Assembly: GCF_017355265.1 (NCBI RefSeq)
Contig: NZ_JADIJQ010000008.1
Coordinates: 1 to 64,000, forward strand
Origin: Tessaracoccus sp. SD287
GTDB lineage: Bacteria; Actinomycetota; Actinomycetes; Propionibacteriales; Propionibacteriaceae
Direction of reading: 5' to 3'
Length of the DNA: 64,000 nucleotides
Positions within the stretch are counted from its first letter, which is position 1. Each line of letters opens with the position of its first letter. This document shows, one piece after another, positions 49,925 to 63,943 of this stretch. A model generated the notes under the pieces. That model was not told where the DNA came from and searched no databases. It saw nothing but the letters and a program-made list of their open reading frames with translations. The position numbers were made by a program, and so were the translations under genes.

Positions 49925-49977
49925 TTCGTCTGCCACCAGCCTCGTTGTCGTTCCCGCACCGCGCCGATGGAGTCGCC

Positions 49978-51045
49978 ATGACCAACAATCCCCCGTACCC
50001 GCCTTTCCCACCGCCGCGCGGACAGCACCGGGTTGTCAGTGGGCAGGGATACGGGCATCCGGGTTTCAACAGCCAGCAATTCGGCAACCCATGGCGCGGC
50101 GTCCAACAGTTCCCCACCCCCCTGCCAGCTCCGGCACCGAGGAAGGCCTCGATCCTGCCGGCCGTGCTGATCGTCGCCGTGGCGCTGGTGGCGGTCATTG
50201 GGATGGTGAAGCTCGCCAGCGACGGGGGCGGCGGGGAGCGGCCGAGCACCCGCTACCAGCACGAGGACTACCAGATTCCCCCCGCCGCCCAGGAGCATCC
50301 CGCCCTGCCCTGGCCATCGACTGACGCCGACATCAAGAACTGGCTCGAGAACAACGCGCTCTACTCCCAACAGGTGGCGGTCCCGGTGCGCTGCGAACTG
50401 GGTGCCTTCGACCACACCACCGCTACCAGCGACCAGAAGAAGGCTCAACTGGAGAAGACGTTGGTCTGCCTGGTGCGGGTGTGGGGTCCGACCCTGGAAG
50501 CCGCCGGGTTCACCATCACCCATCCGACGGTGACCATGTACGACGCCCCCATCCAGAACGCCTGCGGCAAGGCCGAGACGCACAATGCCTTCTACTGCGG
50601 CGTCGACCAGAACCTGTACTTCGCCACTGACGTCCACGAGATCCTGGGTGAGAAGGCCGGCGATCCGTGGGCCTACGAGGCGGTGATGGCCCACGAGTTC
50701 GGCCACTCCGTGCAGGGACGGGCCGGCATCATCCCCGCCAAGGCGCTCAAGGCGCAGCAGGCCACCAACGAGGCCGGTCAACTCGAACCGACCCGCCGCA
50801 ATGAGGCGCAGGCCGACTGCCTGGCCGGGCTCTTCTTCAACTCCGTCCAGGAGTCTATGGGTCTGGATGACGACCAGGTCAGCGGCATCGGGGGCTTCTT
50901 CGGCCAGATCGGCAACGACGACCCGTCCCGGTTGAGCTCCCATCCCCAGCCGCCGACCCGCGCCAGGTGGTTCGGACGAGGTGCGGGCAACACCGCCATC
51001 GGCGTCTGCAACAGCTACGTCGCCCCCCTGGACGACGTGAAGTAG
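49978..51045 (+). CDS. Membrane-anchored neutral zinc metallopeptidase, copy 1
   Basis: A 355-aa type II membrane protein: a Pro/Gly-rich cytoplasmic head, a TM helix (~61-80, ILPAVLIVAVALVAVIGMV), and an extracytoplasmic YpfJ/KPN_02809-type domain (~120-355). The metal site is [18 protein letters not shown] (HExxH), with the third ligand in [15 protein letters not shown]. Conserved cysteines (RCEL, VCLV, ACGK, FYCG, DCLAG, VCNS) may form disulfides. ATG 49978 has GGAG 5 nt upstream. Substrate unknown. Confidence 0.88.
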   Translation: MTNNPPYPPFPPPRGQHRVVSGQGYGHPGFNSQQFGNPWRGVQQFPTPLPAPAPRKASILPAVLIVAVALVAVIGMVKLASDGGGGERPSTRYQHEDYQIPPAAQEHPALPWPSTDADIKNWLENNALYSQQVAVPVRCELGAFDHTTATSDQKKAQLEKTLVCLVRVWGPTLEAAGFTITHPTVTMYDAPIQNACGKAETHNAFYCGVDQNLYFATDVHEILGEKAGDPWAYEAVMAHEFGHSVQGRAGIIPAKALKAQQATNEAGQLEPTRRNEAQADCLAGLFFNSVQESMGLDDDQVSGIGGFFGQIGNDDPSRLSSHPQPPTRARWFGRGAGNTAIGVCNSYVAPLDDVK

Positions 51046-51107
51046 CACGGCCGGCGGGGTTGACTGCAGCCAGTGCCGGCGACCCGGCCAGCGGCTAATC
51101 TGACGAC

Positions 51108-52250
51108 GTGAGCAGCCACCAGCAGCCAGGATGGGACGACTTCGCCACGCGGCGACGCGAACCCGGTGCGGTCGGGGGCGGGTTCGGCACCCAGTCCCAG
51201 TGGCGCGCACCGGCACCGTTCCCGGGCCAGCAGCAGTACCCGGCCCCCCAGTACCCGCCTGCCCAGTACCCGCCGCCGCAGTTCCCCGGACAGTTCGGTC
51301 AGGGCGGCTACCCCCCGTACCCGGCACCGCCCCCGCATCCGCCGCGCAACCGCTCCGTGGTGCCGGTCATCCTGCTGTGCATCGTGGCCGTGGTCGCCGT
51401 GCTGGGGGTGGTGGCGCTGGCCACCGGTGACAACCGGCCCGGCGGGCAGACCAATCGCTACCAGAACGACGACTACCAGGTGCCACCGGCCGTCGGCAAC
51501 CACCCGTCACTGCCCCGACCCACCTCGGATTCCCAGGTCAAGACCTGGCTCGAGGACAACGCGATCTACCAGCAGGACGTGGCCAAGCCGGTGCGCTGCG
51601 AACTGGCTGCCTTCGACCACACCACGGCGACCAGTGACCAGAAGAAGGTCCAACTCGAGAAGGCCCTCGAATGCCTGGTCAGGGTGTGGGGTCCGACCCT
51701 GGAGACCGCCGGTTTCACCATCACCCATCCGACGGTGACGATGTACAGCAGCCCCATCCAGGGTGCCTGCGGCAAGACCGCGATGCGCAACGCCTTCTAC
51801 TGCAGCCTCGACCAGAACCTGTACTTCGCCACCGACCTGCACACCATCTTCGGCGCCAAGTCGGACGACCAGTGGGCCTACGAGGCGGTGATGGCCCACG
51901 AGTTCGGCCATTCGATCCAGGGCCGGACGGGAATCATCCCCGCGAGGAACCTGCTGCTCAAGGACGAGACCAGCAAGGCGGTCGCCTACCTCAGCGTCCG
52001 CCGCACCGAGGCCCAGGCCGACTGCCTGGCCGGGCTGTTCTTCAACTCCACCCAGGAGTCACTGGGGCTGGCCCCCGAGGACATCACCAGCATCCAGAAC
52101 TTCTACGGCTCCATCGGCAACAAGGACCCGAACAAGATCAGCACCCACCCCCAGCCCCAGTCGCGCTACCGCTGGTTCCAGGCCGGCATCACCAATGTCT
52201 CGGTCGGCACCTGCAACACGTTCACGGTGCCCGCGGACGAGGTCAAGTAG
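51108..52250 (+). CDS. Membrane-anchored neutral zinc metallopeptidase, copy 2
   Basis: A 380-aa paralogue of the preceding gene with the same order: a longer Pro/Gln/Tyr-rich head ([16 protein letters not shown]), a TM helix (~82-102), and the domain with [18 protein letters not shown] and [15 protein letters not shown]. Cysteines match copy 1. The catalytic-region DNA is nearly identical in both genes while the heads differ. GTG 51108 lies 6 nt after TAATCT (51096-51101). It ends 8 nt inside the convergent ispF gene. Confidence 0.88.
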
Positions 52251-52734
52251 GCCCGGGCCCCACCACCAGCGCGGTGGCGACGGCAGCCACACCCTCGCCA
52301 CGTCCGGTCAGGCCCAGCCCGTCGGTGGTGGTGGCAGACACGCTGACCGGACACCCCAATGCTTCGGACATCAGCTGTTCGGCCTCGACGCGGCGCCCAC
52401 CGATGCGTGGACGGTTGCCAATCACCTGCACCGACACGTTGCCCAGTTCGAAGCCGGCAGCGCGCACCCGACGCGCGGTCTCAGCCAGGAAGGCGACCCC
52501 GCTGGCCCCCGACCACGCCGGGTCGGACGTGCCGTAGTTGCTGCCCAGGTCACCGAGCCCGGCCGCCGCCAGCAGGGCGTCGCAGGCAGCGTGGCAGGCG
52601 ACGTCACCGTCGGAGTGGCCAGCCGGCCCGGCCGTCTCGTCCGGGAAGTGCAGACCGGCGACGTGCATGGGGACGCCGTTCTCGAGGCGGTGGACGTCGA
52701 CGCCGATGCCGGTGCGGGGCAGTCCGTCGATCAC
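52243..52734 (-). CDS. ispF: 2-C-methyl-D-erythritol 2,4-cyclodiphosphate synthase
   Basis: A 163-aa Isp[13 protein letters not shown] (metal Asp and His, res. ~9-20), [27 protein letters not shown] (~41-67, HSDGD motif) and [20 protein letters not shown] (~136-155). It cyclises CDP-methylerythritol phosphate in the MEP isoprenoid route. GTG 52734 overlaps the ispD stop by 4 nt (GTGA), with GGAGG at about 8 nt. The gene follows ispD in one unit. Confidence 0.95.
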
Positions 52735-53483
52735 CCGTTGTGCCTCCAGTGGCGCCACACCCGGCGACCAGAGTGATGGCCGAGGGTCTCGCGCACCTTC
52801 CACAATGCCCGGGCGATCGTCAGGTCAGCCGGTTCGGTGATCTTCATGCCCATCCGCGAACCGTGCACCAACTCGGCCCGATGCCCCATGGCCTCACAGA
52901 TCGAGGCGTCGTCGGTGAACCGGCGTTCGTTTCCGGCAACTGCCTCGTGGCACTCCCAGATGACCTTCAACGCGAACCCCTGCGGCGTCTGCACCGCACG
53001 CAGGCTGTCACGATTGATCAGGACGGTGTTGTTGTCCTCGTCCACCATGCGAATGGTGTCGGTCACCGGTACGGCGGGGATCACCGCGACAGCGCCCTCA
53101 TGCACCTTGGCGATCACGTCCTTCACCACGTGCGCCGGCACCATGGGGCGGACGGCGTCATGGATGAGCACGATCTCGGCCTCGCGCAGGACGGGGTCGG
53201 CCATGATGGCCTGCAGTCCGCGGTGGACGGACTCCTGCCGGCTCGCTCCGCCGGTGGTCATCACGACCGGGATCGGGGAACCCGTCAGGTGCTTGATGAA
53301 CCGGTCGGCAGTTTTCGGGTTGACGACGACCACGGCGTGGGTGCAGCCGCCGGCCGACATCGCCTCGATGGACATGCCCACGACGGCGCGACCGGTCAGT
53401 TTCAGGATCGCCTTCGGCGTGGGGCCGCCGTAGCGACTACCAATTCCGGCGGCGACAACGATGGCAACAACGGGTTTAGACAC
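52731..53483 (-). CDS. ispD: 2-C-methyl-D-erythritol 4-phosphate cytidylyltransferase
   Basis: A 250-aa Isp[23 protein letters not shown] (res. ~6-27, nucleotide-binding loop), [14 protein letters not shown] (~79), [10 protein letters not shown] (~103) and TQTPQGF-like VQTPQGF (~160). It attaches CMP to methylerythritol 4-phosphate. GTG 53483 lies 6 nt after GATACT on this strand (53495-53490), a leaderless start, so ispD-ispF has its own promoter although it lies 102 nt downstream of ptsI in the same direction. GTG is the sole good start. Confidence 0.93.
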
Positions 53484-53585
53484 CAGTCGAGTATCGCATC
53501 CCGCATCCACCGGCTCGTCCACCGGCTGGTCACAGCATCTCCAGATGGTGCCCCTGGCCGCCCTTCACGGCTGGTGACCCGACCC

Positions 53586-55283
53586 TCAGCCGCCCACCAG
53601 GAAACGCAGTTCGTCACCCGCCAGGGCCAGGACCGCACTGCGCGCCGCCGCCGGGTCACGGGCGGTGACGGCCGCCTGGGCCATGGCGCGACAGGTGGCC
53701 AGGTCGGTGTGGCGCAGCGCGAACCGGACCGCACTCAGTGAGGCGCTCGACATGGACAGGCTGGTCACCCCGAGTCCGATCAGCACCAGCGCCATCAGCG
53801 GGTTGGACGCGGACTCGCCGCACACACCCACGCGTTTGCCCTGCGCCTGGCCGGCTCGAACCGTGCTGCTGATCAGGGTGAGCACGGCGGGCTGCCACGG
53901 GTCGATCAGGTCAGCCAGCGCCCCCAGGAGGCGATCGGTGCCCATCGTGTACTGGGCCAGGTCATTGGTCCCGATCGAGACGAAGTCCAGTTCGGCCAGC
54001 ACCTGGTCTGCCTGGATGGCCGCCGAGGGAACCTCCACCATGGCGCCCACCGTGGTGTTGCCGGCGGCACGAGCCATCCGGGCGAAGTCGCGTGCCTCGT
54101 CCGGCGTGGCGATCATCGGGGCCATCACCCAGGCCTCGGCCTCGGGCACGTCTGCGGAGGCCTCCGCGATGGCCTCGAGCTGGGTCGCCAACAGTTCGGG
54201 CATGGTGCGGACCAGGCGGTACCCGCGGACGCCGAGCGCCGGGTTGTCCTCGTGGTCGACGTTCGCGAAGGCCAGCGGCTTGTCGGCGCCGGAGTCCAGG
54301 GTCCGGAAGACGACCCGGCGCCCGGCTTGGGCGCGCAGCACCCGCCGGTACACGTCGGCCTGTTCCTGCTTGGTCGGTGCCGTCCGGGCCGAGAGGAACA
54401 GCACTTCGGTACGGAACAACCCGACACCGTCGCAGGCATGTCCGGACGCCTCCTGGGCATCGGCCAGCCCACCAATGTTGGCCAACAACGTCACGGGGGT
54501 GCCATCAGCGGTGGCGGCCGGATCAGTGTCGGCGTCCAGACTGTCGAGCAGGTCGTTGCGCCGTCGGATGCGCTCCGCGTCCTGTTCCGAGGGATGGGTC
54601 ATCACGATGCCGGCGCGCCCGTCCACCAGCGCCGGCGCGCCTTCGGGGAGCCGAGTGGCACCCTCGGCCTGGACCACGCAGGCCAGACCCCACTGGCGCG
54701 CGATGATCGCAGTGTGGGCGGTGGGCCCGCCCAGTTCGGTGACCAGGGCCCGGACCTTGCGCACGTCGAGGACGGCCGTGTCGGCCGGGGTGAGGTCCTC
54801 GGCGACGATGATGGAGTCCTCCACCAGTTCGGCACCGGCCATGCCCACGCCCAGCAGCTGAGCCAGTACCCGGTCACGCACCCCGTTCAGGTCGCTGACC
54901 CGTTCGGCCATGTAGCCGCCGAGTGCCTGGAACTGCTCTGCCACCTCGGCGAAGGCCACCCGCACGGCGACGGTGACCGATTCCCCCTGCTCGATGTGCG
55001 CCTGGGCCGCCTCGATGACGCTGGGGTCGTCGGCGATCTCCGCGGTGGCGACCAGGACGTCCTTCAGTTCGCCGTCCTGCTGCTGCTCGGCCAGCTCCGC
55101 GTACTGACCCGCGACGGCGGCCATGGCCGCCAGCAGGGTCTGCGTCGCCGCGGCCCGGTCGTCCTGGTCGACGGGACGGGGCAGGTCGGCGTCGAGGTCA
55201 CCGCCGTGGCGCCACACGACGATCCGGCCCAGGGCACCGCGGACCCCCGCGCTGACGCCGCGGAGCTCGATCGATTCCGGCAT
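53586..55283 (-). CDS. ptsI: PTS enzyme I
   Basis: A 565-aa phosphoenolpyruvate-protein phosphotransferase: ELGGPTAHTAIIARQWGLA (active His, ~res. 190), GVGLFRTEVLFLSA (~290), and IGTNDLAQYTMGTDR (~450) plus VGVCGESASNPL with the catalytic cysteine (~500). It passes phosphate from PEP to HPr. ATG 55283 follows GGGGG. The stop of ptsH is 1 nt upstream, so ptsH-ptsI are co-transcribed, and they lie in the same direction right after the SorC regulator of the glucitol-type operon. Confidence 0.96.
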   Translation of the reverse strand: MPESIELRGVSAGVRGALGRIVVWRHGGDLDADLPRPVDQDDRAAATQTLLAAMAAVAGQYAELAEQQQDGELKDVLVATAEIADDPSVIEAAQAHIEQGESVTVAVRVAFAEVAEQFQALGGYMAERVSDLNGVRDRVLAQLLGVGMAGAELVEDSIIVAEDLTPADTAVLDVRKVRALVTELGGPTAHTAIIARQWGLACVVQAEGATRLPEGAPALVDGRAGIVMTHPSEQDAERIRRRNDLLDSLDADTDPAATADGTPVTLLANIGGLADAQEASGHACDGVGLFRTEVLFLSARTAPTKQEQADVYRRVLRAQAGRRVVFRTLDSGADKPLAFANVDHEDNPALGVRGYRLVRTMPELLATQLEAIAEASADVPEAEAWVMAPMIATPDEARDFARMARAAGNTTVGAMVEVPSAAIQADQVLAELDFVSIGTNDLAQYTMGTDRLLGALADLIDPWQPAVLTLISSTVRAGQAQGKRVGVCGESASNPLMALVLIGLGVTSLSMSSASLSAVRFALRHTDLATCRAMAQAAVTARDPAAARSAVLALAGDELRFLVGG

Positions 55284-55284
55284 C

Positions 55285-55551
55285 TCAGTGCGCCCCCTGC
55301 GACTCGACCAGGTCGCCGAGTTGCTGCAGCGCCTGGTCGGCACCCTCGCCCTCGGCCTGCAGGATGATGACCGTGCCGTGGTCGGCGCCCAGGCCCATCA
55401 CCTTCAGGATCGAGGCCGCGTCGACGAAGTCCCCGGATTCGGTGCGCACCCGCACCTTCACCGGCTGCTTCTTGGCGAGGGCGACGAATTCTGCTGCAGG
55501 ACGTGCGTGCAGGCCCTCCGGTGCGGCCACCGTGACGGTGCGTTCAGCCAT
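55285..55551 (-). CDS. ptsH: Phosphocarrier protein HPr
   Basis: An 88-aa HPr: GLHARPAAEF with phosphohistidine H15 and AASILKVMGLGADHG with a serine at the regulatory position (S47). It accepts phosphate from enzyme I and donates to IIA proteins such as SrlB here. ATG 55551 has GAGAGG upstream. It is 72 nt from the upstream SorC gene. Confidence 0.97.
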   Translation of the reverse strand: MAERTVTVAAPEGLHARPAAEFVALAKKQPVKVRVRTESGDFVDAASILKVMGLGADHGTVIILQAEGEGADQALQQLGDLVESQGAH

Positions 55552-55623: not shown

Positions 55624-56604
55624 CTACTGGCCGGGGTTCGGGGAGTCGGCGGCGCGCAGGACGGCCGTGGCCAGTTCCTCGTCGCCGATGAACTGGGTCA
55701 GCACGCCGGTGCGCAGGGCTCCCAGCGCGCCGAGCGCCTTCTCCATCCCCGCGGCGATGCCGACCACGGAGGGAATCGTGTCGAGCTGTTCAAGGGTGAG
55801 CCCGACGACCCTGTTGCTGGAGGGCAGCCCCAGCGGGCGGCCCTCGATGTCGAAGAAATGACCGCAGAGGTCACCCACCGGATTCTGGGCCATGAAGGTC
55901 TGCTCCTCCTCCGGGGACAGGCGCATCGCCCGGATGACCCTGGACGAGGAGTGCACGCCCAGTCGCCCGATACCGACCAGGGCGACCTCGCACCGCTGGG
56001 CCCGTTCCAGCGCCTGGATCACCCCCGACTCCTGGTTGAGTGCCTTCCAGGTCACCTCGGACTCGACGACGGCAGGTGAGTCGAATCGGTAGGCCAGCGC
56101 GCCGCAGCGCCGGGCCAGCGTGTCGAGCGCCACGTGTCCCGACGCCCCCGTGGGCTGCATGGTCGGGGCCCCGCCGGCCAACGGGCACAGTTCGAGTCGC
56201 GGGTACACCGGCTCGACCTGGACGTGGTCGGTGAAGGAGGCGATCGTCTCACCCCAGCTGAGCCCGAACCGGCTCAGCCCCGGCACGACCTTCTCGAAGA
56301 TCCGGGCGGCCATCTCACCCACGATGTCGACCGCGGTCCGACCCGGGGGACGCACCACCACCTGGGCTGACTGCAGCGAGAATCGCTCCATCAGCGCCGC
56401 CTCCAGCTCCGCGTCCCTGGTCAGGGAGCGGTCCTGGTGGATGCGGATCTCGACGATGCCGCGCTCCCGCGCCGACAGCAGGGTGCGCGAGACGCTGGAG
56501 CGCGACACCCCCAGGGCCTTGGCGATCTCGCCCTGGGACTTGCCGTCGAGGTAGTACATCCGCGCAGCACGAATCAGCACGTCTTGGGAGCGGGGAGCGG
56601 GCAC
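55624..56604 (-). CDS. SorC/DeoR-type sugar-binding transcriptional regulator
   Basis: A 326-aa regulator: an HTH in RAARMYYLDGKSQGEIAKALGVSRSSVSRTLLSARERGIVEIRI (res. ~11-55), then the SorC sugar-phosphate domain (~60-326) with GLSWGETIASFTDHV, ELCPLAGG, and GVHSSSRVIRAMRLSP. GTG 56604 has GGAGG 8 nt upstream. It is the sixth gene of the srl-type operon. Its likely operators are the TGCA-based palindromes at 60539-60652. Members sense sugar phosphates, so the phosphorylated PTS substrate is a likely ligand (inference). Confidence 0.88.
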   Translation of the reverse strand: MPAPRSQDVLIRAARMYYLDGKSQGEIAKALGVSRSSVSRTLLSARERGIVEIRIHQDRSLTRDAELEAALMERFSLQSAQVVVRPPGRTAVDIVGEMAARIFEKVVPGLSRFGLSWGETIASFTDHVQVEPVYPRLELCPLAGGAPTMQPTGASGHVALDTLARRCGALAYRFDSPAVVESEVTWKALNQESGVIQALERAQRCEVALVGIGRLGVHSSSRVIRAMRLSPEEEQTFMAQNPVGDLCGHFFDIEGRPLGLPSSNRVVGLTLEQLDTIPSVVGIAAGMEKALGALGALRTGVLTQFIGDEELATAVLRAADSPNPGQ

Positions 56605-56636
56605 GTCTTGAACCTCCGATACTCGAGCCTGAACGG

Positions 56637-57929
56637 TCAGAGCATGCCCTGACCCAGGAGCGAGTCTTGCAGGCGTCGCATGGCAACCAAAGGTCGGGAC
56701 TCGTCGAGCACCACGTCGTCCCACCCGATCACCTCGTCCTTGGCGATGTCACGCACGAGCTCGGCGCCGGCCAGCAGGCCCATCGGAAGGGCGTTGCGCT
56801 CGCGTGCCTCCTGAACCGGCACCGTCCAGCCGCGGGCGTGGTAGCCGCCCATGCCGTCCAGGACGGTTCCGGCCGGCAGGTCGATCTTGGCGCGCGCGAC
56901 CACCTCACTCGTCCAGGTGGCTGCCTGGAAGCTGGCGGTGCCCTCCAGGACGGCCTGGCCGATCGAGAGGTGAGCCTCGATGGAGGCCAGGTGGTAGGGG
57001 CGGTAGAGGACGTAGTAGGGGCCCTTGCCGAGCTTCAGGTAGTCCAGTTCGTGGGTCACCACGTCGGACTCCGACTTCACCACCACGAAGACTCCGGGGG
57101 CAACATTGCCGGTGACGAACTCGACGACCGGGCTCTGGCCCAGGATTCCCCCGTCACCCTCGGGCACCAGCATGGTGGCCAGCTCGTCCAGGTCGCAGGC
57201 GGGCCCGTGCATGCCCGAGACGTCCACGGGGTAGCCGGTGGCGTTCGACAGGGCGCACATCTCGAGTTGGGTCTTGGTCCCGTCGGTGAACTCGCACAGC
57301 ATCTTGGGGTTCATCCCCTTGCCCTCGGCCTCCGCCCGGACGTCGTCGGGGGTGTCGTAGGGACGGTTGGGATTGTTCTTGCCCTTGCCGGCCGCGACCA
57401 CCGTCAGGCCGAGGTCCTCGGCGTAGTGGACCAGCTCGAGGCATTCCACGGGTTCGTCACCGCGGCAGACCGTGTAGACCGAATTGCCGGCGTTCGCCAT
57501 GGAGGCGAGCAGCAGGCCCACCGTGACGTCCGCCTCGACGGTCATCAGGGCGACGTGCTTCTTGGCGGTGATCGAGGCCCAGGCGACCGAGGCGGCCACG
57601 TCCGGCACCCCGGAGACCTCCAGGACGAGGTCGACCGGCAGCTGGGGCAGCAGCCGCCCGTCGCGGAGCACGACCCGCTCGCCCCGCTGAATGCGCTCAA
57701 TCGCCTCGGTGACGTCCTCGCAGAGGACGGCTCCCGGAAGGCCGGCGCGTTCGAGGGCCCCGACGGCCCGGTCCGGGGCAATGTCTGCCACGGCCACCAC
57801 CTCGATGCCCTTGGCGCGGCTGAGCTGGGCGATCAGGCCGCTGCCCATCTGTCCGGCTCCGACCTGCGCGACGCGGACGGGGCGTCCAAGCTCGTCCTGC
57901 CTGCGCAGCAGTGCCTGGGTGTAGTACAT
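56637..57929 (-). CDS. COG4091 oxidoreductase (homoserine-dehydrogenase-like, SAF domain), possibly DRL/DXR-like
   Basis: A 430-aa protein with a Rossmann start VRVAQVGAGQMGSGLIAQL (res. ~18-36), a middle domain (~150-300) with VVAAGKGKNNPN, NPKMLCEFTDGTKTQLEMCALSNATG, and a C-terminal SAF-like domain (~345-430, ARAKIDLPAGTVLDGMGGY). It belongs to the predicted homoserine dehydrogenases of COG4091, which from memory include the Brucella DXR-like enzyme. It fills the place where a sorbitol-6-phosphate dehydrogenase would be, 2 nt after gutM and 32 nt before the regulator. Substrate unproven; a polyol phosphate is likely. Confidence 0.82.
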   Translation of the reverse strand: MYYTQALLRRQDELGRPVRVAQVGAGQMGSGLIAQLSRAKGIEVVAVADIAPDRAVGALERAGLPGAVLCEDVTEAIERIQRGERVVLRDGRLLPQLPVDLVLEVSGVPDVAASVAWASITAKKHVALMTVEADVTVGLLLASMANAGNSVYTVCRGDEPVECLELVHYAEDLGLTVVAAGKGKNNPNRPYDTPDDVRAEAEGKGMNPKMLCEFTDGTKTQLEMCALSNATGYPVDVSGMHGPACDLDELATMLVPEGDGGILGQSPVVEFVTGNVAPGVFVVVKSESDVVTHELDYLKLGKGPYYVLYRPYHLASIEAHLSIGQAVLEGTASFQAATWTSEVVARAKIDLPAGTVLDGMGGYHARGWTVPVQEARERNALPMGLLAGAELVRDIAKDEVIGWDDVVLDESRPLVAMRRLQDSLLGQGML

Positions 57930-57931
57930 GG

Positions 57932-58432
57932 TCAGCTCCTCGGGGTTTCGGCGCCGCCGGCGCGGGTCAGGGGGGTGGCGCGACGGGTCACACGGACACG
58001 GTCCTGCTGCCGGCCGGCGCCGGGGGCGACTGTCGACAGGGAGGTGTCGCGCTGCCCGCGCAAGCTCTTCAGGCGGGTCAGGGCGTCCTCGATGGCTCTG
58101 CGGACCTGGACGTCGGTGGTGCGCTCGGCGATGGTGGCCACCGGGCCGACCAGGTGCGGGGCGGGACGAAGCCGCGCCACCACTGTCGCCCCCGCCATCA
58201 CGCTGGCCGCCACCACGTCCTGGCTGGCGCTGTCCACCACCAGGACGACGACGGCGCCGCGCAGGCGTCCCTTACCGCGTCCGGAGACCAGATGCCGCCC
58301 GGGGGCGTTGTGGGACAGCGCGATGGCATTCACGTCGGCGGTGTACTTCTTGGTCTGCCACACCGACAGCCCAACGCTCAGCAGCAGGGCGGTCAGCAGC
58401 AGGATCGGCAACAGCCATTCCATGTCGGTCAC
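57932..58432 (-). CDS. gutM: GutM-type regulatory membrane protein
   Basis: A 166-aa protein with one N-terminal TM helix (res. ~5-25, LLPILLLTALLLSVGLSVW) and the GutM region GRGKGRLRGAVVVLVVD (~52-68), then LTRLKSLRGQRD. GutM (SrlM) is an activator of glucitol operons in enteric bacteria; here it has a C-terminal basic tail. ATG 58432 overlaps the stop of srlB by 4 nt. Its regulatory role in this organism is inferred by family. Confidence 0.85.
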   Translation of the reverse strand: MTDMEWLLPILLLTALLLSVGLSVWQTKKYTADVNAIALSHNAPGRHLVSGRGKGRLRGAVVVLVVDSASQDVVAASVMAGATVVARLRPAPHLVGPVATIAERTTDVQVRRAIEDALTRLKSLRGQRDTSLSTVAPGAGRQQDRVRVTRRATPLTRAGGAETPRS

Positions 58433-58797
58433 TCCCCCCGGGTGAATCGGAGGGTCAGGCCGGGCAACGGCATCGGGACGCCGTCACCGGCCGCCTTGAT
58501 GGCGCCGGGCAGCAGCTTCTGGTCGGGCTGGTTGGCGTAGACCACGACGTGGCCGAGTTCGGCCAGGTTCGCGTTCGCCCGTTCGCCGACCTCTGCCACG
58601 GTGAAGCGGTCCTCACCGATCCAGAAGTCGTCGCCGGGGCGCACCTCGGCCGCCTGCCCGGCACCGTCGTGGACGATGCTGACATCGGCCAGGGCGTCGG
58701 GGACGGGTTCACCGAACAGGATGTAGCAGCCGGCGTCGAACATCTCGGGTGCGTCGTCACCAATGCGGGTGACGGTGGCGGACCAGATGTCAGTCAT
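58429..58797 (-). CDS. srlB: PTS glucitol/sorbitol-type enzyme IIA
   Basis: A 122-aa IIA-Gut: PEMFDAGCYILFGEPVPDALADVSIVHDG (res. ~18-45), where H43 is the likely phosphohistidine, and DRFTVAEVGERANANLAELGHVVV further on. AGGAGAA precedes ATG 58797. It passes phosphate from HPr to the IIB domain of SrlE. The stop overlaps gutM by 4 nt. Confidence 0.92.
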   Translation of the reverse strand: MTDIWSATVTRIGDDAPEMFDAGCYILFGEPVPDALADVSIVHDGAGQAAEVRPGDDFWIGEDRFTVAEVGERANANLAELGHVVVYANQPDQKLLPGAIKAAGDGVPMPLPGLTLRFTRGE

Positions 58798-58850: not shown

Positions 58851-59852
58851 TCAGATGAGGAACGAGGCGAGGAAGGCGATGATGACCGCGATCGGCGAGG
58901 TGATCAGGCGACTGAACAGCACCGCCGGGACACCGACCGACACCGTCTCCGGCTGGGCCTCCCCGAGGGACAGGCCCACCGGGACGAAGTCACAGCCCAC
59001 CTGCCCGTTGATCGCGTACAACGTCGGCAGGGCATACTGCACGGGCACTGCCCCCTGCGCGATCTGGGTGCCCATCAGCACACCCACCACCTGGGCAATC
59101 GCCGCACCGGGACCCAGAATGGGTGACAGGAACGGGAGCGCGGTGATGATGCCGAGGGCCACCAGCCCGATCGGGTTGGACGCCATCGGCGAGACGCCGC
59201 GGGCGATCCAGTCCGAGATGCCGGTGTAGGTCACGATGCCGATGAGCAGCGAGACGTAGACCATGAACGGCAGGATCGTGTTGAGCATCAGCTTGACCGA
59301 CTGCCGACCCGAGCTGAGCAGCGTGTTGATCAGGTAGCCGATCGCGCTGCCGAACTTGACCACGATCCCGGTGAAGCCGCCGCCGGCGGCTGCCGTGGCC
59401 GCCTCGCGGCGTGCCTCGGCACGGGCGGTGGTCTCGCGCAGTTCCTCCACGGGGGTGGGCTTGGCGGTGGTGACCACGTCGCCCTCCTCGGCCAACTGCA
59501 CCTGGGACTCGCCCACCGCCGAGACGAAGATGTCCTCGGTGATGTACTGGGCCAACGGACCACCCGGCTCGCCGGCGAAGACGTCGACGGTCGGAATCCC
59601 CTTCTTCGGGTAGACCCCCACGCGGGCAGTGCCGCCACAGTTGATCACCGCAGCCATCACCTGGGCGTCGGCGACGTGGTTGGTGAATCCGTCCACGACG
59701 TCGGCACCGGACAGTTCGGCGATCCGCTGGGCCACCGGATGGATTCCTCCGCCGGTGACCGACAGGACAACCTTCTTCTCCTCGGTGGGGGTCAGCACGA
59801 GTCCGGTACCCCAGCCGCCCTGCCCCTTCGAGATTCGAACGCTGCGGAACAT
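58851..59852 (-). CDS. srlE: PTS glucitol/sorbitol-type enzyme IIBC-like (IIB with membrane domain)
   Basis: A 333-aa protein. The IIB part (~1-170) starts FRSVRISKGQGGWGTGLVL, with VINCGGTARVGVYPKKGIP, where Cys72 is the likely phosphocysteine. The membrane part (~185-333) has four to five helices with FVPVGLSLGEAQPETVSVGVPAVLFSR. ATG 59852 overlaps the srlA stop by 1 nt (TGATG). Together with srlA it forms the membrane transporter. Confidence 0.93.
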   Translation of the reverse strand: MFRSVRISKGQGGWGTGLVLTPTEEKKVVLSVTGGGIHPVAQRIAELSGADVVDGFTNHVADAQVMAAVINCGGTARVGVYPKKGIPTVDVFAGEPGGPLAQYITEDIFVSAVGESQVQLAEEGDVVTTAKPTPVEELRETTARAEARREAATAAAGGGFTGIVVKFGSAIGYLINTLLSSGRQSVKLMLNTILPFMVYVSLLIGIVTYTGISDWIARGVSPMASNPIGLVALGIITALPFLSPILGPGAAIAQVVGVLMGTQIAQGAVPVQYALPTLYAINGQVGCDFVPVGLSLGEAQPETVSVGVPAVLFSRLITSPIAVIIAFLASFLI

Positions 59853-60508
59853 CAGAACACCCCTCCGGTGGTGGCGGCACCGGCACTCTGGAAGTGGCCG
59901 TGCTCGTAGGCCTCGTCGAACTTCTTGAAGACCTCCCCGTGACCACCGCGCTTGATCAGCAGCGCAGTGATGACCTGGGTGACGTAGCCACGAATGGCGA
60001 TCACGACGATGCCGGTCAGGAAGTACAGGGCCGCCAGGCGGGCGTATGCCCCGTCGTCGACCTGCATGACACCTGCGGAGACGCCGGCCCACACGAAGAT
60101 CTCACCCGCATTGGCATGCGGGAAGAACGACGTGACCGGGTGGACGAAGGAGACCGCGGAGTCGTAGAAGGCGGGCTTGTAGCGCTCGGGCAGGAATCGT
60201 CCGAACGAGTAGCACATGGGGTTGGTCAGGATCAGGACGCTGATCACCGGCATGATCGTGTAGCGGGTGAGGGCGTACTTGCCGGCCCACTGCACTGCCT
60301 TGGTGACGCGCTCCTCCCCGATCCATGTGGTGATCGCATACATCGCGGTCAACAGGACCAGCAGCAACGGCAGGATGCCGGTGATGAGGCCCAGGAGACT
60401 CTCGGCGGACGCGTTGAACAACCCGATGAAGTGGGTTGCGAACCAGGTGATGCCCCGCATCACCGGGTTGCTGCTTGTCTCAAGCAGCACGAAGTCAAAG
60501 GCGGGCAT
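59852..60508 (-). CDS. srlA: PTS glucitol/sorbitol-type enzyme IIC
   Basis: A 218-aa membrane protein: MRGITWFATHFIGLFNASAESLLGLITGILPLLLVLLTAMYAI near the start, LILTNPMCYSFGRFLPERYKPAFYDSAVSFVHPVTSFFPHANAGEIFVWAGVSAG (~res. 95-150), typical of GutA/SrlA. ATG 60508 follows GAGGAG. It is the first gene of the operon and leaves a 168-nt control region shared with the divergent E1 alpha gene. Confidence 0.93.
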   Translation of the reverse strand: MPAFDFVLLETSSNPVMRGITWFATHFIGLFNASAESLLGLITGILPLLLVLLTAMYAITTWIGEERVTKAVQWAGKYALTRYTIMPVISVLILTNPMCYSFGRFLPERYKPAFYDSAVSFVHPVTSFFPHANAGEIFVWAGVSAGVMQVDDGAYARLAALYFLTGIVVIAIRGYVTQVITALLIKRGGHGEVFKKFDEAYEHGHFQSAGAATTGGVF

Positions 60509-60538
60509 ACTCAACTCCTCTGTTGGTGAGCACCTTTA

Positions 60539-60652
60539 TGCACATCCATGCGAGCAGATGTGCAGTTGCGGATCATCATGACACCACGCCGGCGCTCTTG
60601 CCAAGGCCCGACACCCAGGATCGCTGTGCAAATAGTTGCAGATACATCTGCA
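60539..60652. promoter_or_regulatory. Operator cluster between the PTS and dehydrogenase operons
   Basis: Three palindromes share TGCA ends: TGCACATC-N10-GATGTGCA (60539-60564), TGCAAATAGTTGCA (60627-60640, 5-bp arms) and TGCAGATACATCTGCA (60637-60652). The last covers the -35 zone of the E1 alpha promoter (-10 TATGGT at 60664-60669). The first lies just upstream of srlA. They are good candidates for the SorC regulator encoded in the PTS operon, which would link both operons. Confidence 0.6.
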
Positions 60653-60676: not shown

Positions 60677-61681
60677 ATGTCAGGAGATCACACTGAGCTC
60701 GCCACCGATACCCTGCGCACGATGTGGCGCATCCGCCTCTTCGAGGAGGCCGTCGAGGACCTGTACGGCCGGGGCATGATGCACGGCACGATGCACCTGT
60801 CGATCGGCCAGGAAGCCGTGCCCACGGGCGCGTGCCAAACCCTCAAGGGCGGTGACCAGATCACCTCCACCCACCGCGGTCACGGCCACTGCATCGCCAA
60901 GGGGGCCGACCTGGGCCGCTCGATGGCCGAACTGCTGGCCAAGGACAACGGCTACTGTCGTGGCCGCGGCGGCTCCATGCACATCACCGACGTCTCCCAG
61001 GGCAACCTCGGAGCCAACGGCATCGTGGCCGGCGGCGTCCCGATCGCCACCGGCGCCGCCCTGTCCAACAAGATGCGCGGCACGGACAACGTGACCCTGT
61101 GCTTCCATGGCGACGGAGCCGTGGGTGAGGGCGCCTGGCACGAGGCCGTGACCCTGGGCTCCATGTGGTCCCTGCCGGTCGTCTACATCTGCGAGAACAA
61201 CAAGTACGGGATGTCGATGCCGTCGGAAAAGGCGTTCAAGGTCGAACGGCTCTCCGACAAGGCGGCCGGCTACGGCATCCCCGGCGTGACCGTCGACGGC
61301 AATGATGTCGACGCCGTCCGTGAGGCCGTCGCCGAGGCCGTCGAGCGCGCCCGCCGTGGCGAGGGTCCGACCTTCATCGAGTGCCTCACCTACCGGTGGC
61401 GCGGGCACTCCAAGTCGGACAAGAACCTGTACCGCACCAAGCAGGAGATCGCGCAGTGGCGCGACCGCGACCCGATCGCCGCCTACGCCCACAAGTGCCT
61501 CGAGAACGGGTCACTGACCCAGGAGCAGATCGACGCGGTGGCCGACGAGGTGCGGACCCAGATCCGGGAGGCTGTCGTCTTCGGCACCCAGGGCGCCGAA
61601 CCCACCCTCGAGGACATGCTCGCCGGCGTCTACGCCCCCTCCCCCGTCGACGCCCAGGACATCGCGAAGGGTCTGATCTGA
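60677..61681 (+). CDS. Acetoin/2-oxo acid dehydrogenase E1 alpha subunit
   Basis: A 334-aa ThDP-dependent E1 alpha: [13 protein letters not shown] (res. ~60), RGRGGSMHI (~93), [18 protein letters not shown] (~110), the ThDP motif [31 protein letters not shown] (~146-176), and [16 protein letters not shown] (~241). The GHSKSD form is typical of acetoin dehydrogenase AcoA rather than pyruvate dehydrogenase. ATG 60677 is 7 nt after TATGGT, a leaderless start. It is the first gene of a three-gene operon, divergent from the PTS operon. Pyruvate or branched-chain substrates cannot be excluded. Confidence 0.85.
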
Positions 61682-61682
61682 C

Positions 61683-62681
61683 ATGACGAACACCGAAACG
61701 CGAACGATGACCTACGCCGAGGCCATCCGCGAGGCCATGGCACAGGCCCTCGAACAGGACCCCCGCGTGTTCCTGATGGGCGAGGACGTGGGCGTCTACG
61801 GCGGCGCCTTCGGCGTCGAGAACGACCTCATCGACAGGTTCGGTCCCGAGCGCATCCGCGACACGACGATCTCCGAACTGGGCTTCGTCGGTCTCGGGGT
61901 GGGGGCCGCGGTCACCGGGATGCGGCCCATCGTCGAGATCCAGTTCTCCGACTTCACCGCCCAGGCCATGGACCAGATCGCCAACCAGGCTGCCAAGCTG
62001 CACTTCATGGTCGGCGGCCAGCAGAGCGTCCCACTGGTCATCCGCGCCCCCGGTGGCTCCGGTACCGGTGCGGCGGCGCAGCACAGCCAGTCCCTCGAGG
62101 CGTGGTTCGCCCACGTCCCCGGGCTCAAGGTCGTCATGCCCTCCAACGCCACCGACGCGGCGTCGCTGCTGCTCGCCGCCCTCGAGGACCCCAATCCCGT
62201 CGTCATCCTCGAACACAAGCTGCTGTACAAGCAGCAGTTCGAGTGCCCCCTGGAATGGCCGAAGGCCCTGCTCGGCCAGGGGCGCATCGAGCGGGAGGGC
62301 ACCGATCTGACGATCGTCGCCACCGCCATCGAGGTGCAGCGCTCGGTGCAGGCCGCCGAACAACTCCAGGCCGAGGGCTTCTCCGTCGAAGTCATCGACC
62401 CCCGCACCATCAAGCCCCTCGACACCGAACTGATCCTGGCATCGGTGCGCAAGACGGGTCGGGTGCTGCTGGTCCAGGAGGCGGCCAAGACCGCGGGGTT
62501 CATGGCCGAGGTGTCGGCGATGATCACCGAGTCGGACGCCTTCGCCTACCTGCAGGCGCCCGTGAAGCGACTGTGCGGCCTGGACACGCCCATCCCCTAC
62601 AACCCCCAGTTGGAGAAGGGCACCGTTCCCCAGGTGGACGACATCGTCCGCGAAGCCAAGCAACTGATCCAGGAGTGGTGA
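61683..62681 (+). CDS. Acetoin/2-oxo acid dehydrogenase E1 beta subunit
   Basis: A 332-aa transketolase-type E1 beta: [34 protein letters not shown] (res. ~9-42), [35 protein letters not shown] (~57-92), [26 protein letters not shown] (~137-162) and [13 protein letters not shown] (~235). It completes the ThDP site with E1 alpha, whose stop lies 1 nt upstream. Same operon. Confidence 0.87.
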
Positions 62682-62683
62682 CC

Positions 62684-63943
62684 ATGCCCCGCATCCCGAT
62701 CAACATGCCGAAGATGTCGATGACCATGGAGACCGGCACCCTGGTCGAATGGTCGGTCAGCGTCGGTGACGAGGTCCATGACGGCGACGTGCTCTGCGTC
62801 GTGACCACCGACAAGGTGGACATGGACGTCGAGAGCGTCGCCGACGGGGTCATTGCGGAGTTGCTGATCGACGCCGGCGACTCGCTGCCGGTGGGCCAGC
62901 CGATGGCCTGGCTGGACTCGGCCAGCGAGGACCTGCTCGGGGACCTCTTCGCCGGGTCCCCGGCGCAGGAGAAGGCTGCCGACACCCCGGCGATTGCCAC
63001 GGGCGACTTCGAGTCCGATTCCGCGGACGAGCCCGCCCAGGGCGGACCTCCCGCTCCCACCGAGCGGCTCCGCGCGGTGCCGCTGGCCCGCACCCTGGCC
63101 AAGGAGCACGGCCTGGACCTGCGCCAACTGGCCGCAGCCCAACCCGGACGCGTGGTGCGCGCCCGCGACGTCCGCGAAGCACTCGAACGCCAGGAGCAGC
63201 CAACCGCCGCGCCCGCGCCCCAGCCTGAACCGGTCCGCGCCGAACCGGTCCGCGCCGAACCGTCGCCCAAGCGTCAGGCACCGGCGACCGACCGCAGGTC
63301 CCGCGTCCGGCAGGCCACCGCGCGGGTGATGGAGACCTCAGCCCTGGTCCCGCAGTTCACTGCCTACCGCACCCTCGACCTGACCCAGACGGCGCGCGCC
63401 CGCACGGCCGGCCTGAAGGGCGTCTCGTGGACGACGATCCTGGTCAGGGCCTACGCCATGATGCTGGAGCAGTACCCCGACCTCAACGCCTCGTGGGTCG
63501 ACGGCCAGGTGACGGCGAACGAGGACGTCGTGGTGTCCCTGGCCGTCGACACCCCCGACGGTCTGCTCGCACCCGCCGTGACCAACCCGCAGCGGACCTC
63601 GATGAAGGCACTGGATGCCCAGATCCGCGACCTCGCCTCTCGGCTGAAGCAGGGAGCACAGGACCGCGACCTGTTCGCCCAGGGCACCGGCACCGTGTCC
63701 AACCTGGGGGGCATGGGGGTGGAGATGTTCAATGCCCTGCTGACTCCCCCGCAGGCCACGGCCCTCTCGCTGGGCTCGGTGGGCCACAAGTTTCGGACCG
63801 ACGAGGCCGGCGCGCCGGCGGCGTTCATGGGCTGCACGGTGGGGCTGACCATCGACCACCGCGTGGCCGATGGAGCTGACGCGGCTCGTGCCCTGGACAC
63901 CCTGCAGGCGCTCCTGGCCGATCCGATCACCCTGCTGGCCTGA
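62684..63943 (+). CDS. Dihydrolipoamide acyltransferase E2
   Basis: A 419-aa E2: a lipoyl domain (res. 1-78) with lipoylated K44 in TTDKVDMDVES, a peripheral-subunit-binding domain (~127-165, RLRAVPLARTLAKEHGLDL), a Pro/Ala linker with EPVRAEPVRAEP, and a catalytic acetyltransferase domain (~200-419) ending TIDHRVADGADAAR with the HxxxDG site. AGGAG precedes ATG 62684, 2 nt after the E1 beta stop. No E3 (lipoamide dehydrogenase) is present before the terminator, so an E3 encoded elsewhere must serve. Confidence 0.9.
   Translation: MPRIPINMPKMSMTMETGTLVEWSVSVGDEVHDGDVLCVVTTDKVDMDVESVADGVIAELLIDAGDSLPVGQPMAWLDSASEDLLGDLFAGSPAQEKAADTPAIATGDFESDSADEPAQGGPPAPTERLRAVPLARTLAKEHGLDLRQLAAAQPGRVVRARDVREALERQEQPTAAPAPQPEPVRAEPVRAEPSPKRQAPATDRRSRVRQATARVMETSALVPQFTAYRTLDLTQTARARTAGLKGVSWTTILVRAYAMMLEQYPDLNASWVDGQVTANEDVVVSLAVDTPDGLLAPAVTNPQRTSMKALDAQIRDLASRLKQGAQDRDLFAQGTGTVSNLGGMGVEMFNALLTPPQATALSLGSVGHKFRTDEAGAPAAFMGCTVGLTIDHRVADGADAARALDTLQALLADPITLLA

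Follow-up and report, generated by a model that had tools for sequence, protein, structure and literature searches.

DXR-II is a second, unrelated enzyme for the conversion of DXP to 2-C-methylerythritol 4-phosphate (MEP) in isoprenoid synthesis (PMC3847144). Eleven members of the family make MEP in vivo and the tested DLO relatives do not; the latter form two sister groups, DLO1 and DLO2, without DXR activity where tested (PMC3847144). K191, K193, T229 and R320 are the substrate- and fosmidomycin-binding residues of DXR-II, and the enzymes of Finegoldia magna and Chloroflexus aurantiacus are functional in E. coli, yet neither of these bacteria has a MEP pathway (PMC3847144). The DXR-II-type protein (DRL) of Listeria monocytogenes is a listed member of the published DXR-II clade. 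It is encoded in a locus of the lmo0542–lmo0546 type (L092), together with GutM, the IIC, IIB and IIA components of a glucitol-type PTS and a SorC-type regulator. To our knowledge, neither an enzyme activity nor a growth test nor a metabolite has been described for this type of operon, in which a DRL accompanies a Srl-type PTS, and among open-licence papers we found no description of methylerythritol uptake or catabolism, of a DXR-like enzyme together with an acetoin dehydrogenase, or of lmo0546.

The window, that is, the whole stretch of 64,000 nucleotides from Tessaracoccus sp. SD287 that we analysed, carries such an operon on its minus strand. It begins with a SrlA-like EIIC of the glucitol-type PTS (59852–60514; Pfam EII-GUT 1.8e-67, NCBIfam SrlA equivalog above cut-off), a SrlE-like EIIBC with the likely start MFRSVRI (58851–59852; EIIBC-GUT_N 1.7e-60, EIIBC-GUT_C 1.2e-41), a SrlB-like EIIA (58429–58797; PTSIIA_gutA 1.4e-25, the sole one found in a search of the genome) and a GutM-like protein (57932–58432; GutM 3.4e-11), all of them far above chance. 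The DRL gene (56637–57929) starts 2 bp after the gutM-like gene and is followed by a SorC/DeoR-type sugar-binding transcriptional regulator whose exact start is uncertain (55624–56620; Sugar-bind 5e-49), an HPr phosphocarrier protein (55285–55551; TIGR01003 2.8e-23), PTS enzyme I (53586–55280; TIGR01417 1.2e-107, above cut-off), the MEP cytidylyltransferase IspD (52731–53522; TIGR00453 1.3e-58, above cut-off, the only full match in the genome) and IspF (52243–52803; TIGR00151 2.6e-41, above cut-off, single copy in the genome). Divergently, on the plus strand, lie the genes for a TPP-dependent E1 alpha (60678–61681, with 60664 or 60678 as the likely start; Pfam E1_dh 7.4e-84), E1 beta (61683–62681; NF006667 3.1e-113) and a lipoyl acyltransferase E2 (62684–63943; 2-oxoacid_dh 3.4e-42, Biotin_lipoyl 3.7e-19). 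The next gene after E2 is carD, on the other strand and just past the end of the window; in several other genera, too, the cluster is placed between carD and ispD–ispF. On the far side of ispF, two tandem paralogous plus-strand ORFs of about 370–380 aa with a HEFGHS metallopeptidase motif (49945–52250) are also conserved close to ispF in relatives.

EIIC, EIIBC, EIIA and GutM belong to the same families in the window and in the srl/gut sorbitol operon of E. coli and Salmonella (L106), but the two operons differ in several ways. No SDR gene lies between SrlA and IspF, and the window operon is therefore without SrlD, as the initial annotation had it; a SorC regulator stands where the sorbitol operon has SrlR; and the window has an additional HPr and enzyme I, a SrlE of a separate group, and a coupling to DRL and E1/E2. 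In the SrlE tree the DRL-linked sequences, that of the window among them, and the SDR-linked sorbitol sequences, represented by three rows only, fall on opposite sides of a branch with an SH-aLRT of 99. Plasmids of different Ligilactobacillus salivarius strains carry the SDR-type operon in one case and the DRL-type operon in another. Both results bear out the earlier suspicion that the compound is probably not sorbitol and that the name glucitol PTS would mislead, and a transported compound other than sorbitol is thus supported. The accompanying statement that the oxidoreductase replaces sorbitol-6-phosphate dehydrogenase is right as to the missing SrlD; "replacement" is nevertheless a loose word, because the two kinds of operon, DRL and SDR, appear to be distinct polyol systems with one type of transporter in common. 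An FSA-type aldolase gene adjoins both kinds of operon in L. salivarius (L091, L104), and in Kineosporia and families f12, f19 and f34 (L067–L069, L081–L084) two ORFs, each with a separate part of EIIBC, take the place of a single SrlE homologue.

The 430-aa, COG4091-type protein right after gutM is encoded by an intact ORF. Its homoserine-dehydrogenase-like N-terminus is recovered as NAD_binding_3 (1e-5), and the SAF domain lies at the expected place (residues 344–407), though below the Pfam cut-off (E 0.0025, 18.8 bits versus 21). As a description of the enzyme, however, "homoserine-dehydrogenase-like" stops short: the defining domain, absent from the first reading, is Pfam DRL_cat (PF21135, 3.9e-62), which places the enzyme in the DXP-reductoisomerase type II family and therefore points to 2-C-methylerythritol. 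The only full-length solved relatives are the Brucella abortus DXR-II structures 3UPL and 3UPY, and 3UPL matches residues 10–427 with 3e-94. K191, K193, T229, H250 and R320 (Brucella numbering) are all kept in the alignment, including T229, which is lost in distant homologues; position 121 is Ala in the window protein and Gly in DXR-II. A quick tree puts the window DRL on the DXR-II side of a split between 63 DXR-II-type rows and seven distant homologues (SH-aLRT 88). Membership in the non-DXR sister families DLO1 and DLO2 was ruled out by T229, H250 and the tree. Judged by its sequence, the protein is a member of the DXR-II (DRL) family. It differs from the Brucella enzyme in ending beta-2 with an NAD-type Asp, where Brucella has Ser-Ala-Arg-Arg, and in its PTS/E1 catabolic context, in a genome that already has DXR-I. 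We propose that it would act as an NAD-dependent MEP-to-DXP oxidoisomerase.

An acidic residue ending beta-2 typically selects NAD. Outside f15, a family of small-genome Actinomycetota, and Brucella apart, Asp or Glu occupies this position in 49 of 49 DRLs, all those in catabolic context included; the acidic residue is absent from nine of ten f15 DRLs, as it is from Brucella. PTS or E1 genes neighbour 46 of the 49 acidic DRLs versus none of the nine non-acidic ones, a correlation backed by only about three changes on the tree; with phylogenetic control there are just two independent pairs and no power, and the Fisher p of 6e-8 is not independent evidence. DXR-I is absent from all 17 f15 genomes tested, which have IspG, and the nine searched for DXS gave only weak, transketolase-like matches. 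In ten f15 loci (L119–L128) the DRL has no PTS or E1 neighbours and in 6–7 of the ten adjoins polyprenyl synthase, type 2 IPP isomerase (IDI-2) and IspE: it is a biosynthetic DRL. Brucella DXR-II branches within the rhizobial PTS/E1-linked group of the quick DRL tree. The simplest reading of these sequences would be an origin in NAD-type catabolic enzymes, with two or more later recruitments to biosynthesis, and the beta-2 residue suggests a preference for NAD among DRLs in catabolic context.

The E1/E2 set resembles the acetoin dehydrogenase complex (acoABC) in being of the TPP–lipoyl type, with an E1-alpha/E1-beta heterodimer and a lipoyl E2. The DRL-linked E1-beta proteins of three phyla, with that of the window, form one group (ultrafast bootstrap 90, SH-aLRT 90). 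Its nearest labelled reference, weakly supported (88/66) and the only one of its kind in the tree, is the E1 of an authentic acetoin operon, that of Acinetobacter (L107), in which acetoin reductase and butanediol dehydrogenase are present; mitochondrial PDH, Bacillus PDH and BCKDH fall outside the group. The best-scoring models for the window E1-alpha are those of PDH. A single clade of all DRL-linked E1-beta that takes in genome G330 (L079) was ruled out (p-AU 2e-6), and L079 joins acetoin dehydrogenase. Unlike the acetoin operon, the window set comes without acetoin reductase or butanediol genes, E2 being followed by carD, and it co-occurs with a DRL, the proposed acyloin being DXP. Acetoin dehydrogenase turns an acyloin into acetyl-CoA and an aldehyde; DXP is an acyloin like acetoin, and the same chemistry would therefore yield acetyl-CoA and glyceraldehyde 3-phosphate. 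E. coli aceE mutants, which make DXP in vivo, suggest in the opposite direction that such chemistry is within reach of a PDH-type E1 (PMC3424233).

The grouping of DRL, PTS and TPP complex recurs, reshuffled, in Actinomycetota, Alphaproteobacteria and Bacillota, and the SorC regulator is kept beside DRL in most relatives. Among Actinomycetota, DRL occurs with the glucitol-type PTS, the SorC regulator and E1/E2 in many orders and orientations. Alphaproteobacterial plasmids (Nitratireductor, Rhizobium K1/93, Aminobacter, Pseudoroseomonas, Terrarubrum and, by sequence search, Paracoccus) carry GutM-IIC-IIB-IIA-ptsP, a SorC regulator and DRL-E1alpha-E1beta-E2, and three of their E2 proteins bear the record name acetoin dehydrogenase. 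Priestia has PTS, E1/E2/E3 and DRL with an FGGY kinase. In Rhizobium N324 and S. meliloti Rm41, DRL-E1-E1-E2-E3 is kept and the PTS gives way to an ABC transporter and a sugar kinase; in NGR234, a strain in the published DXR-II list, E1/E2 directly follow DRL. Since E1/E2 are kept beside DRL with either a PTS or an ABC transporter, DRL goes with E1/E2 across transporter types. A DRL lies within 9 kb in 33 of the 34 plasmid E1-beta records closest to that of the window (at least 58% identity), a set that includes close relatives and hence fewer independent events than the count. In three loci (L081, L080 and L067, from G073, G126 and G457) an extra IspD paralogue stands beside DRL, and the other IspD is found with IspF elsewhere in the genome.

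The association is not universal. At least seven lineages with DRL and PTS (Pseudoclavibacter, Zimmermannella, Brachybacterium, Acidipropionibacterium, Tessaracoccus, Dermabacter and G004) lack an E1 of the DRL-linked group, the best match being 40–43%. These E1-lacking relatives carry a trio of a class II ketose-bisphosphate-type aldolase, a TPI-like protein and YjbQ; the trio adjoins the DRL–PTS operon in L053–L057, L059, L060, L063–L065, L071 and L073, and in L049–L051, where it is present in addition to E1. In the E1-lacking relatives either DXP is split another way or the substrate differs. No E1 is found beside DRL in Listeria, L. salivarius or E. raffinosus, and the Listeria locus differs from the window in gene order as well as in having no E1/E2 adjoining DRL. 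Conversely, C. difficile plasmids (L098, 7017–12937) carry a SorC regulator and E1alpha/E1beta/E2/E3 of the DRL-linked group, with adjoining PTS IIA/IIB/IIC of another type, and have no DRL within 9 kb of the set. The E1 group is therefore not strictly tied to DRL, and the C. difficile set perhaps serves to break down a different acyloin or 1-deoxyketose.

The divergent region between srlA and the E1-alpha gene contains two copies of a 26-bp operator-like dyad with a 12-bp spacer: TGCACAT-N12-ATGTGCA before srlA (TGCACATCCATGCGAGCAGATGTGCA, 60539–60564) and TGCAAAT-N12-ATCTGCA before the E1-alpha gene (TGCAAATAGTTGCAGATACATCTGCA, 60627–60652). The same dyad with the same spacing lies 70–139 bp upstream of srlA in L049, L051, L052 and five Pseudoclavibacter loci (L049 and L051–L057 in all). 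In 561 kb, 12 of 13 matches fall at srlA or E1-alpha promoters, with about two expected in shuffled sequence; the window itself supplied the pattern, three of the 13 are in the window's own region (two of them overlapping), and the Pseudoclavibacter loci are almost identical to each other. The PTS–DRL and E1/E2 operons are thus plausibly under one SorC-type regulator.

Searches of the window genome recovered its own DXR-I (on contig 16), DXS, IspD, IspF and IspG, and no HMG-CoA reductase, so DRL is not needed there for isoprenoids. DXR-I rules DRL out as the genome's sole DXR. IspD and IspF were likewise ruled out as dedicated extra copies in this genome: each is the genome's one housekeeping copy, and carD and ispD flank the cluster. 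DRL and Srl-type PTS also occur in five genomes with HMG-CoA reductase and without IspG (G143, Pseudoclavibacter G453 and G461, Zimmermannella G458 and Dermabacter G460), and IspF is absent from both of those searched for it (G143 and G453). Because these mevalonate-only genomes carry the operon too, it does not serve there to make isoprenoids. L. salivarius and E. raffinosus, which use the mevalonate pathway, carry this operon type as well. Two genomes of family f21 (G109 and G208) have DXR-I, IspD, IspF, IspG and the DRL–E1/E2 cluster with no true DXS match; the cluster E1 might supply DXP in these. Three genomes of genus g68 (G119, G080 and G270) have IspG and no DXR-I, and a DRL with acidic beta-2 is their only DXR candidate.

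We consider it probable that the genes of the locus form a regulon for the breakdown of 2-C-methyl-D-erythritol, or of a closely related 2-methyltetrol, via MEP and DXP to acetyl-CoA and triose phosphate. 2-C-methylerythritol corresponds to an isoprenoid intermediate in free form and also arises by oxidation of isoprene. The glucitol-type PTS, which has an HPr and an enzyme I of its own alongside, would import 2-C-methylerythritol and phosphorylate it to MEP; DRL would oxidise MEP with NAD+ to DXP, running the DXR-II reaction backwards; and the E1/E2 complex, with E3 from elsewhere, would convert DXP with CoA and NAD+ to acetyl-CoA and D-glyceraldehyde 3-phosphate. The DXR reaction is reversible, and the cleavage of DXP would draw it in this direction. 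The shared dyad ahead of both operons would be bound by the SorC-type regulator, whose ligand is probably a sugar phosphate, and the adjacent IspD and IspF could divert a small share of the imported MEP to isoprenoids. What we observe in the sequences are the family memberships, the gene context across phyla, the active-site and cofactor-site residues and the shared operator-like dyad; from these we infer the substrate, the reaction direction, the cleavage of DXP and the regulation. The weakest points of the methylerythritol model are the relatives that lack E1 and the C. difficile E1 set without DRL.

The E1-lacking relatives give some room to another branched polyol taking the same route: the PTS would import apiitol (2-C-hydroxymethyl-erythritol) or a similar branched alditol, and DRL would form xylulose or ribulose 5-phosphate, with the E1 complex as a helper or yielding glycolyl-CoA. 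The rearrangement is chemically analogous, transketolase and an FSA-type aldolase follow the L. salivarius DRL operon, and the aldolase/TPI-like/YjbQ trio replaces E1 in part of the family. Even so, we regard this route as rather unlikely: the most conserved partner is an acyl-forming TPP complex, which is not required for a ketopentose phosphate, and DXP and MEP are the substrates of the verified family members (PMC3847144). Alternatively, the cluster could be a plain polyol operon whose DRL acts as the dehydrogenase for sorbitol 6-phosphate or a different straight alditol phosphate, next to an unrelated pyruvate dehydrogenase encoded by the E1/E2 genes. The glucitol family of the transporter and the PDH models that score best with E1-alpha fit this reading. 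We think it quite unlikely, given that L. salivarius has a classical SDR operon besides the DRL operon, that the SrlE types separate in the tree, and that DRL keeps the E1 set as a neighbour in different phyla and with different transporters.

An isoprenoid role, either with DRL for MEP synthesis or with the PTS for salvage of methylerythritol via IspD/IspF, and without catabolism, would suit the position of the cluster between carD and ispD–ispF, the true equivalogs IspD and IspF in that place, and the g68 genomes that have a cluster-type DRL and no DXR-I. We give it little credence as the main function, since the operon persists in mevalonate-only genomes, the window genome has DXR-I and DXS, salvage would not call for a link to E1/E2, and the genuine biosynthetic DRLs sit in other operons. 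Isoprenoid supply may be a side role of a cluster whose main function we take to be methylerythritol catabolism.

For the family as a whole, it stands in our judgement at an even chance that there is a widespread, undescribed catabolism of 2-C-methylerythritol via DXP, from which the biosynthetic DXR-II of Brucella and of the actinobacterial family would be derived by reversal with a switch from NAD to NADP. If true, this would suggest an origin for biosynthetic DXR-II and would explain functional DXR-II in bacteria without a MEP pathway, such as F. magna and C. aurantiacus. Operons that carry the label "sorbitol PTS plus SAF-domain protein" in many genomes would then represent carbon catabolism from an isoprenoid-pathway intermediate. 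Methylerythritol is made by plants and 2-methyltetrols are found in the atmosphere; the pathway would give both a use, and its importer-kinase, NAD-linked MEP oxidase and DXP-cleaving E1 would be available as enzymes for isoprenoid engineering.
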